This document shows, piece after piece, positions 58,489-62,017 of a DNA stretch of 64,000 nucleotides (positions within the stretch are counted from its first letter, which is position 1; every line of letters starts with the position of its first letter). The notes beneath the pieces are model-generated. The model worked only from the letters and a program-made list of their open reading frames with translations. It was not told the origin of the DNA and ran no database searches. Origin of the DNA: Geothrix edaphica. Lineage in GTDB: Bacteria; Acidobacteriota; Holophagae; Holophagales; Holophagaceae. The translations under genes and the position numbers were made by a program. The stretch is from positions 1,488,001 through 1,552,000 of the forward strand of contig NZ_BSDC01000001.1 in the NCBI RefSeq assembly GCF_030268045.1, in the 5' to 3' direction.

Positions 58489-59217
58489 CTAGTAGACCGC
58501 GTCAGCTCCGCCGTCGAGCGGGATCACAGCCCCCGTCGTCCATCCGCTCTCGCCGCCGAGCAGGTGCGCGGCCAGGGCGGCCACCTCGGCTTCGGTGCCG
58601 AGGCGCCCCAGGGGATTCACGGCCGACAGCGCGGCCAGATCGCCCTCGGGATCCGCGCTGGCAGCCAGGCGGGCGTCCACCATGGCCGTGCGGATGGGGC
58701 CCGGCGCAATGGCATTGCAGCGGATGCGCCGCGGCGCCCACTCCAGGGCCAGCACCTTCGCCAGCATGTGGACCCCGGCCTTGGCCACGCTGTAGGCCGC
58801 GCTGTCCGGGATGGCCCGGAGGCCGATGTTGGAGCCCACGAGCACGACACTTCCACCATCCTTCAGTCGGCTTGCCAGATGGTGAGCCATGAGCCAGGGA
58901 CCGCGGAGGTTCACAGCGATGGCCGCATCGAAATCCGCGGTGGACGTGGAAGCCACGGAGCCCAGCACCAGGCCGCCCGCGTTCAGGAACATCCCATCCA
59001 ATTCCGGGCATTCCCGGGCGTAGGCCGCCACGGCCGCATCATCCGAATGATCCAGGACCACGTGGACCGCATCCGGCAGCGTGTCCCGGAGTGTGTCCAG
59101 ATGCCGGCCCGCCAGGATCAGGTCCGCGCCGCGGTCCCTGAAGAGTCGCGCCGCCGCCCGTCCGATGCCGCTTCCGGCGCCCGTGACGAGGATGCGCCGA
59201 CCCTGCAGGCTGTTCAT
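58489..59217 (-). CDS. Short-chain dehydrogenase/reductase
   Basis: 242 residues of the classical SDR type. The cofactor motif is TGAGSGIGRAA, NAGG marks strand 4, and the catalytic residues are in VLVGSNIGL and AYSVAKAG (S, Y, K). GRH after strand 2 suggests preference for NADP. GGESGWTTGAVIPLDGGAD ends it. It overlaps the DUF502 gene by 4 bp (ATGA), making it the last gene of the pgsA operon. Confidence 0.88.
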   Translation of the reverse strand: MNSLQGRRILVTGAGSGIGRAAARLFRDRGADLILAGRHLDTLRDTLPDAVHVVLDHSDDAAVAAYARECPELDGMFLNAGGLVLGSVASTSTADFDAAIAVNLRGPWLMAHHLASRLKDGGSVVLVGSNIGLRAIPDSAAYSVAKAGVHMLAKVLALEWAPRRIRCNAIAPGPIRTAMVDARLAASADPEGDLAALSAVNPLGRLGTEAEVAALAAHLLGGESGWTTGAVIPLDGGADAVY

Positions 59218-59852
59218 GGTTTCTCCGGCAGCCGGAAGGAACCGGTGCCCGTCCGGGGCGGCACCACGACGCCGCCGCTGATGGCCCAGGTCAGGGCCTG
59301 GTCGGCGCTGAGGTCCGCCGGCCTCACCTTCGAAGCCTCGATCATGATCACGTAGCCGGAGGTGGGGTTGGGGGCGGTCGGAATGTAGACGGCCAGCATG
59401 CCCTGTCCCCCCGGGATGGCCCAGGAGCAGTCCCGGCTGGCCACGAAACCCAGGGTGTAGGAGCCGGGATGGGGCCACTCCACGACCACCACCTCCTTGA
59501 AGCTGCCGCCGCGGCCCGACTGGATGGCGCCCATGAGCTGCCGGGTGGCGCCGTAGACGGTCTTCACGACGGGCACGGACATCATCAGCTCATCCAGCCA
59601 GGACAGCAGCTGGCGGCCGATGAAGTTGCCCATCAAGGCGCCCACCACCACCAGCAGCATCACGGTGGCCAGGCCGGAGAACAGCGCCAGCGCCCAGGTC
59701 GGCGGGTCCGGCACGTGGATCAGGTGGGCCAGGAAGGTCAGCGGCTCCCGGAAGATGCCCACCAGGGCCGTGAAGATGCCCCGGAGGATCCAGAGCGTCA
59801 CCACCAGGGGCAGCAAGGTGAACAGGCCCGCGAGGAGGTACTTCCGAATCAT
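59214..59852 (-). CDS. DUF502 membrane protein
   Basis: 212 residues. Two membrane helices (LLAGLFTLLPLVVTLWIL and ALALFSGLATVMLLVVVGALMGNFIG) precede a conserved cytoplasmic domain (SVPVVKTVYGATRQLM, EVVVVEWPHPGSYTLGFVAS, LAVYIPTAPNPTSGYVIM). The family has no proven function. Its ATG overlaps the stop of a 35-codon leader whose opening copies this gene's first 11 codons. Confidence 0.88.
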   Translation of the reverse strand: MIRKYLLAGLFTLLPLVVTLWILRGIFTALVGIFREPLTFLAHLIHVPDPPTWALALFSGLATVMLLVVVGALMGNFIGRQLLSWLDELMMSVPVVKTVYGATRQLMGAIQSGRGGSFKEVVVVEWPHPGSYTLGFVASRDCSWAIPGGQGMLAVYIPTAPNPTSGYVIMIEASKVRPADLSADQALTWAISGGVVVPPRTGTGSFRLPEKP

Positions 59853-59956
59853 CGGTACACCCCATGTCGACACACGAACCACGCTCCACCGAGCGTCTCG
59901 CGCATCCCTGCAGGGGATGCCGAGAACAGGCCTGCGAGGAGATACTTGCGGAACAT
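59849..59956 (-). CDS. 35-residue leader with duplicated DUF502 start
   Basis: The ATG at 59954-59956 directly follows the pgsA stop (TGAATG), and the TGA at 59849-59851 overlaps the DUF502 ATG. Residues 1-11 are MFRKYLLAGLF against MIRKYLLAGLF in DUF502. Outside codon 2, every difference in these codons is a silent third-position change. The remainder (SASPAGMRETLGGAWFVCRHGVYR) is unrelated. Two back-to-back hairpins (59881-59896 and 59897-59924) lie inside. It is either the remnant of a tandem DUF502 copy or a functional coupling leader. Confidence 0.5.
   Translation of the reverse strand: MFRKYLLAGLFSASPAGMRETLGGAWFVCRHGVYR
59881..59924 (-). promoter_or_regulatory. Two adjacent hairpins inside the DUF502 leader
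   Basis: ACGCTC-CACC-GAGCGT (59881-59896, 6 bp, 4-base loop) is immediately followed by a larger stem (59897-59924: CTCG plus GCATCCC against GGGATGC plus CGAG, one bulged base, 5-base loop containing the centre of CTGCAG). They could form on the pgsA-DUF502 transcript. Confidence 0.55.
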
Positions 59957-60610
59957 TCAGTGTCCTTCGGAATCCTTGTGCCCGGTGAGGCGGCCTTCTT
60001 CGGCCAGGATGCTTGGTCCCACCACCTTCCAGAAGCCGTGGAAATAGGAGATGGCGCTCCAGATGGCGAGGATGACGGCACCCCAGAGCAGCAGCACGCC
60101 CATGCCCCAGAAGAAACTGTAGGGCCGGTTGAGCTGGATGAAGAGGTGGAAGATCTCCTTGTGGGTCCAGTCGTAGAGCCAGTAGTCGAGCCGCGGGCCG
60201 AGGATGAGACAGGAGATGGCCGCCACCTGGAAGCCCATCTTCCACTTGCCGATGGCGCCGGCCGGAATGGTCATGCCCTCTTCGCTGGCGATGCCCCGCA
60301 GGCCCGTCACGGCGAACTCCCGGGAGAGGATGATGAAGGTCATCCAGGCCGGGGCCAGGTTCAGCTCCACCAGAGAGATCAGGGCTCCGGACACCAGCAG
60401 CTTGTCCGCCAGGGGATCCAGCAGCTTGCCGAGGGTGGTCACCTGCTTCCAGCGCCGGGCGAAGTAGCCGTCCAGGGCGTCCGTGATGGAGGCGGCCCAG
60501 AACACCAGCACACCGATGACTTCGTGATTCGTCACCTTGGTCATGAGCACCACGACCAGGACTGGGACCATGAGGATCCGCGCGAGCGACAGGAAATTGG
60601 GCAGGTTCAT
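59957..60610 (-). CDS. pgsA: CDP-diacylglycerol-glycerol-3-phosphate phosphatidyltransferase
   Basis: 217 residues with ~5 membrane helices. The CDP-alcohol phosphotransferase motif D-x2-DG-x2-AR-x8-G-x3-D-x3-D is complete (DALDGYFARRWKQVTTLGKL, then LDPLADK). It makes phosphatidylglycerol phosphate, the precursor of PG and cardiolipin, so it fits the PLD-type gene at 38.7 kb. It heads the pgsA-leader-DUF502-SDR operon and ends against the leader ATG. A C-terminal extension (~residues 175-217) is longer than in E. coli. Confidence 0.92.
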   Translation of the reverse strand: MNLPNFLSLARILMVPVLVVVLMTKVTNHEVIGVLVFWAASITDALDGYFARRWKQVTTLGKLLDPLADKLLVSGALISLVELNLAPAWMTFIILSREFAVTGLRGIASEEGMTIPAGAIGKWKMGFQVAAISCLILGPRLDYWLYDWTHKEIFHLFIQLNRPYSFFWGMGVLLLWGAVILAIWSAISYFHGFWKVVGPSILAEEGRLTGHKDSEGH

Positions 60611-61748: not shown

Positions 61749-62017
61749 GAGTCTGCATTCGAAGTGGGGTGCGGTCGCGCAAGGGGCGCCGCCCAAGCGA
61801 GCCAAGGAGAACGACGATGGCAATAGGGGCACTATGGACGAGGAGTTCGACGCGGGATCGCGCCGGGCGCCGCCCCTTGCCCTCCGGGACGTGGCCAGCC
61901 GCACCCTTGGCTTCGTTACCGGCCTTGAACGATGTGCCGCATCGCCCGGCGGCCGGTGCCTTGCCAAGGGCGCGGCTGGCCGGCGTCGCGGCCATATCCC
62001 ACTTCGAATGCAGACTC
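61749..62017 (+). ncRNA. Structured leader of speA with three long helices
   Basis: P1 pairs 61749-61779 with 61987-62017: 30 of 31 positions pair, the first 20 as perfect Watson-Crick, and three are G-U. P2 pairs 61779-61794 with 61865-61880 (15 pairs, one C-C mismatch; 61779 could join either P1 or P2). P3 pairs 61892-61911 with 61963-61982 (19 of 20, one G-U). Inside P3 are P4 (61918-61924/61951-61957) and P5 (61930-61934/61940-61944). P1, P2 and P3 form a three-way junction. P1 ends 1 base before the speA ribosome-binding site. No known riboswitch or housekeeping RNA motif is evident. A mobile inverted-repeat element is the main alternative. Confidence 0.65.

Follow-up and report, generated by a model that had tools for sequence, protein, structure and literature searches.

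The 35-codon open reading frame (ORF) wedged between pgsA and the DUF502 gene of Geothrix edaphica is probably the footprint of a mobile hairpin, called H hereafter, with a target duplication of about 73 nt and recombination thereafter. H would have inserted by transposition at a CNTYWT site within the first codons of DUF502, giving a product T-H-T' in which the hairpin is flanked on each side by the target stretch of about 73 nt. The left copy would retain the original ribosome-binding site and start and be truncated by H, while the right copy would restore the complete gene. The truncated copy reads through H, stops on the ATGA of the real start, and could thereby pass ribosomes to DUF502 by termination-reinitiation. 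Later recombination between the repeats would remove the unit exactly, leaving a bare junction, would multiply it (three units in one species), and would keep the copied codons similar to the gene, so that only silent differences are seen. This account draws on features legible in the sequences of many genomes: a family of H copies, empty and filled sites, a fixed geometry, a target motif, the positions of frames and stops, and tandem arrays.

The locus lies on the minus strand of the window (the whole stretch of 64,000 nt that was analyzed). The upstream gene, pgsA, encodes a CDP-alcohol phosphatidyltransferase (59957..60610, minus strand; Pfam PF01066, E = 1.1e-41) and ends with a TGA at 59957 (minus strand); its 3' end holds a ribosome-binding-like stretch, GAAGGA, that now stands ahead of the leader ATG. 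The leader ORF (59849..59956, minus strand; MFRKYLLAGLFSASPAGMRETLGGAWFVCRHGVYR) has no match in Pfam and is intact in 8 of 8 carrier species. As an earlier, sequence-only reading of the locus had described, its ATG at 59956 directly follows the pgsA stop and its TGA (59849-59851) overlaps the DUF502 ATG (59852-59850) as ATGA. The DUF502 gene itself is intact (59214..59852, minus strand; 212 aa; Pfam PF04367, E = 9.8e-31). The same reading had noticed that the ORF opens with a copy of the DUF502 start, and this holds: the 31-nt left copy (59926..59956, minus strand; ATGTTCCGCAAGTATCTCCTCGCAGGCCTGT) is identical at 26 of 31 nt to the right copy, which is the functional DUF502 start (59822..59852, minus strand; ATGATTCGGAAGTACCTCCTCGCGGGCCTGT). 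Codon 2 differs (TTC/ATT), and the remaining differences (CGC/CGG, TAT/TAC, GCA/GCG) are indeed all silent. Overlooked at the time was the element between the two copies, a 31-nt hairpin of family H (59895..59925, minus strand; TCTCGGCATCCCCTGCAGGGATGCGCGAGAC; model R1, E = 1.5e-13) that reads TCTCG GCATCCCC.. / ..GGGATGC G CGAGA, with a single bulged G. The left copy ends in the target motif CCTGTT, the final T of which is the first base of the hairpin. Between the hairpin and the functional start lies a 42-nt tail, X (59853..59894, minus strand), which would form the left part of the right-hand copy; from the end of the hairpin to the end of that copy there are 73 nt.

The consensus of H (TCTCG-GYATCnnC-nnn-GnnGATRC-G-CGAGA-C) spans 31 nt and forms a 13-bp stem with a triloop and one bulged G. 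In an alignment of 22 variants, 95.8% of the stem cells were paired and 19 cells had changed on both sides, with none of 500 shuffles as high; as a DNA strand, H folds at about -12 kcal/mol (z -4.8). A covariance model search of the genomes recovered about 15 strong copies in the window's genome, 7 to 21 in close relatives, and at least one copy in 67 of the 77 genomes of the order. When GTDB contigs were scanned with H, the matches listed were nearly only Geothrix/Holophagaceae records, and five loci gave no Rfam match at the gathering score. The family has the general features of REP-like elements, namely, a palindrome of 20 to 40 nt, many dispersed copies, and compensatory changes in the stem. 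In three genomes (G024, G034, and G037), several H copies are found no more than a few hundred bases from the end of a contig, which suggests longer tandem arrays that break short-read assemblies.

The insertion geometry was read from 192 H copies in the fetched loci, a set that includes orthologues and a few chance hits, using the distance D from H to the end of the right-hand copy of the sequence lying just left of H. The left flank recurred on the right in 93 of the 192 copies, and D was 72 to 76 in 77 of these 93; among randomly re-paired flanks, 1.4% passed. Other classes of D were 36 to 37 (add), 121 (the second DUF502 site of genome G052, from another genus), and 126 to 139 (biotin-carrier genes). 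Younger insertions show a near full-length duplication (66/68 nt in manC, 63/64 and 60/62 in rpsT), and in older ones it is mainly the coding part that is still recognizable. At the DUF502 locus, X is identical at only 7 to 18 of 42 positions to the pgsA end of its own genome and can no longer be aligned with it, a point against the mobile-hairpin model; it is from the other loci and the constancy of D that we infer a full 73-nt duplication there. Tandem arrays of H have a period of 103 to 107 nt or of 68 nt. One array of six H with the 68-nt period stands behind the adenosine deaminase gene, add (L126; G001:C7, 98247-98620), where the spacers are copies of the 3' end of the gene.

Copies of H are located just inside the starts or ends of genes such as uppS, polA, manC, cydB, rpsT, and efp. 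By Pfam, the genes hit comprise uppS, polA, a nucleotidyl transferase (manC-like), ThiF, CydB, a MacB-type permease, an amino-acid kinase, S20, EF-P, biotin carrier, adenosine deaminase, NFACT, a FAD-binding protein, a 2-oxoacid dehydrogenase acyltransferase, and NADH dehydrogenase chain 6. In every case examined of the class with the duplication of about 73 nt (class 1), the gene is intact beside the insert. The target motif 5' of H, CNTYWT, was derived from 21 distinct sites (C in 20/21, T in 19/21, Y in 20/21, and the last T in 21/21). At gene starts, H invariably occupies one codon phase. Among CNTYWT-like sites in the coding DNA of the window, 95% of those in sense orientation fall in the observed phase, as do 63% of the antisense sites for the phase seen at gene ends. 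The fixed phase was considered as a sign of peptide function and rejected, since base composition largely explains it; in our reading, third codon positions seldom hold T or A in so GC-rich a genome. The gene body of class 1 cases always lies 3' of H, both at gene starts (sense) and at gene ends (antisense). This constant polarity counts against the mobile-hairpin model, as a simple target duplication does not predict it. A right-anchored search for mirror-image insertions, with the gene body 5' of H, gave no clear case; the match at L170 resembles an old tandem unit.

A second class of copies has a tail of 11 nt, making inserts of 41 nt, and lacks the long duplication; any duplication around these inserts is very short. 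Copies with a tail like AAACTGATATC occupy a constant position within dispersed inverted repeats of the CACCAAGACACCAAG type (L053, L055, L057, L230, L231, and others). The window has an intergenic, GC-rich palindromic repeat without H at 61749-62017, upstream of an arginine decarboxylase-like gene, with inverted arms at 61749-61779 and 61987-62017. A copy elsewhere in the same genome that is 91% identical (G000:C1, about 1463769) contains H and the 11-nt tail (41 nt in total) at the point matching 61962, and the repeat of the window is thus an empty site for the H family. The class 2 outcome also counts against the mobile-hairpin model, under which one mechanism must yield two products.

We found DUF502 in 42 of the 47 Geothrix genomes and could read its junction with pgsA in all 42. 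The junction is bare in 34 species, the two genes abutting or overlapping by a few bases; 7 species, including that of the window, carry a single additional unit of exactly 104 nt, and in genome G003 three of these units follow one another in tandem (312 nt). Bare and filled junctions (34 versus 8) thus differ by exactly 104 nt per unit. Seven other species share the unit and its site, one of them with three in tandem, and the duplication is therefore not a chance event. In other genera of the order, 21 junctions were examined, and the only one with anything similar is that of G052, with two hairpins upstream of DUF502 (contig C7; L329 / L164). The first lies at the same DUF502 codon as in Geothrix, with D = 73 and an unrelated tail X (7 to 13 of 42 positions identical); the second lies at codon 26, with its own duplication and D = 121. 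Given the unrelated X at the shared codon and the second H at codon 26 in this genome, the DUF502 gene can be hit independently.

That observation bears on how the Geothrix units came about. H units may have been inserted repeatedly at the same codon, by site-specific homing or by homologous exchange between species, instead of once in an ancestor with frequent loss; we regard this as rather unlikely. Besides the G052 copy, the specific target motif and the scattered presence of carriers on the pgsA+DUF502 tree (7 changes, versus 7.5 for shuffled labels) speak for it. Against it, the tails are homologous in the 8 Geothrix carriers (24 to 41 of 42 positions identical between species), and a unit can readily be lost exactly when its copies recombine; a single ancestral gain would need 17 losses on this tree. 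Moreover, the empty sister of the window species is closer to the leader copy than to the gene copy (2 versus 4 differences), as expected after loss. The homology of X among the Geothrix carriers favors either one old insertion with many exact losses or exchange between species.

The sequence-only reading had placed the leader for translational coupling, and this extends well beyond the DUF502 locus: at 10 of 10 distinct gene-start sites, the stop of the leader frame lies between -9 and +8 nt relative to the start codon of the gene proper, and at each site the actual frame is the only one to stop there; for random frames at real gene starts of the window, the expected rate is about 0.20 per gene and frame. 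Tail X has accumulated 53 inferred substitutions in the 8 species and no indels. Because the frames stop near the starts at all ten sites and X lacks indels, the leader is kept in a position suited to coupling. Close relatives with a bare junction would use the GAAGGA near the pgsA end for DUF502; at the window junction it precedes the leader start, and DUF502 would there depend on reinitiation.

Such placement could also mean that the leader peptide or a regulatory upstream ORF is under selection and that the hairpin serves DUF502 as an RNA structure resembling an attenuator. We consider this improbable. Frame, length, and ATGA overlap are kept without an indel in all 8 carriers, stop adjoins start at the ten gene-start sites, and the hairpin structure is conserved, all of which it would explain. 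The junctions themselves answer the earlier suggestion of a conserved leader in two ways, since every carrier keeps the frame but 34 of 42 species do without the segment. The scattered presence on the tree further speaks against it, as do the antisense copies of the same hairpin at the ends of genes and its copies within intergenic repeats. The selection on the peptide that had been proposed from the silent-only differences finds no support in the substitutions either: across the 8 species, the copied codons had a pN/pS of 0.20, as against 1.53 for the codons of the hairpin and 0.83 for X. The hairpin part keeps base pairs and not amino acids, and the tail is near neutral. For DUF502 codons 1 to 10, pS was 0.327 and pN 0.053. 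Copied codons differed on average by 3.88 nt from the gene of their own genome and by 5.14 nt from the genes of other genomes (permutation P = 0.001), and the leader-to-leader distance was larger still (5.46). Since the copies track their own gene, as from unequal exchange, the silent-only pattern is best attributed to recombination that would homogenize them; a mixture of homogenization and weak constraint is possible, and the numbers are small.

Also counting against a mobile hairpin, no transposase family recurs near H, the recurrent neighbors being only target genes and common domains. The Y1 transposase (PF01797), the sole transposase family searched genome-wide, was not found in the window's genome and is absent from 42 of the 47 Geothrix genomes. 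H could nevertheless be an ordinary REP element mobilized by a RAYT, with the duplications secondary: it is a short, imperfect palindrome that prefers certain sites and occurs both between and within genes. This is very unlikely, as H has no GTAG tag, Y1_Tnp occurs in only 5 of 47 Geothrix genomes, H is single or directly repeated and not arranged in inverted pairs, and the CGTC REP pairs of one Sphingomonas genome showed no long flanking duplication. More tentatively, and with somewhat less than even confidence, we propose a hairpin without a recognizable transposase and with a new mechanism, by which CNTYWT would be recognized and a near-constant target stretch copied (usually about 73 nt, sometimes about 37 or 121 to 139 nt), rebuilding the gene and creating coupled mini-cistrons. 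One guess is a single-strand process in which the length is set by the footprint of a DNA-binding protein. The internal deletion of a tandem DUF502 paralog, offered earlier to explain why the first 10 to 11 codons copy the gene start with mostly silent changes, was rejected as extremely improbable, being contradicted by the junctions of relatives, which lack a second full gene in 42 Geothrix and 21 other genomes of the order, and by the supposedly deleted middle, which is a foreign, dispersed hairpin with the same geometry at many other genes.

Insertion of H leaves a readable signature, made of a target motif, a duplication of constant length, and a polarity, and this bears on the question of how transposase-less REP-like hairpins spread. 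It accounts for one type of phantom short ORF and of duplicated gene start seen between conserved genes, and it shows how a repeat can strike essential genes (polA, uppS, rpsT, efp) and still leave them intact. In addition, copy number at operon junctions can vary naturally as the unit is exactly lost or multiplied.

The insertion sequences IS1549 and IS1634, which are complete and encode a transposase, have long direct repeats of widely varying length, well beyond the 2 to 14 bp that are usual for target duplications. H resembles them in its unusually long duplication and differs in being a 31-nt hairpin with one preferred length. Literature searches for long target duplications and for repeats of Geothrix turned up nothing close to H. 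The Rickettsia palindromic elements (RPE; 105 to 146 bp) interrupt the protein (PMC2229807). Like these and other bacterial miniature elements (MITEs), H is a small hairpin-forming repeat read in frame within coding regions; unlike in RPE, the gene is rebuilt by duplication, and H comes to lie in a separate leader or behind the gene. Compared with MITEs, which have terminal inverted repeats and a short target duplication, H is a single hairpin, with a duplication of about 73 nt in class 1 and 41-nt inserts with a very short duplication at most in class 2. YPAL/RU-2 is a 168-bp palindromic element whose target duplications, of variable length (3 to 26 bp), adjoin dyad symmetry (PMC2229807); it shares with H the palindrome and the target duplication, but H has 31 bp and duplicates about 73 bp. 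REP elements are GTAG- or CGTC-tagged palindromes of 20 to 40 bp, present in many copies in and outside genes (PMC3733652). H is likewise an imperfect palindrome with many copies, and its class 2 copies lie within larger palindromes, as some REPs do. In contrast to GTAG REPs, it has neither a RAYT nor an unpaired GTAG tag (in the 22-sequence alignment, the outer stem is TCTCG/CGAGA and the 5' flank CNTYWT). CGTC REPs have the tag CGTC (or TGTC/CCTC), a stem of 8 to 9 bp, a loop of 4 to 5, and a CCA tail; the class has no dedicated transposase, its spread is raised as a question, and the word "duplication" is absent from the main text of that paper (PMC3733652). H differs from them in lacking the CGTC tag and in its longer, bulged 13-bp stem, its triloop, and its other flanks, and from REPs in general in lacking inverted pairs and in its long, near-constant target duplication. 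We class H as a new family of REP-like elements, unusual in that its insertion product holds a long and nearly fixed duplication.
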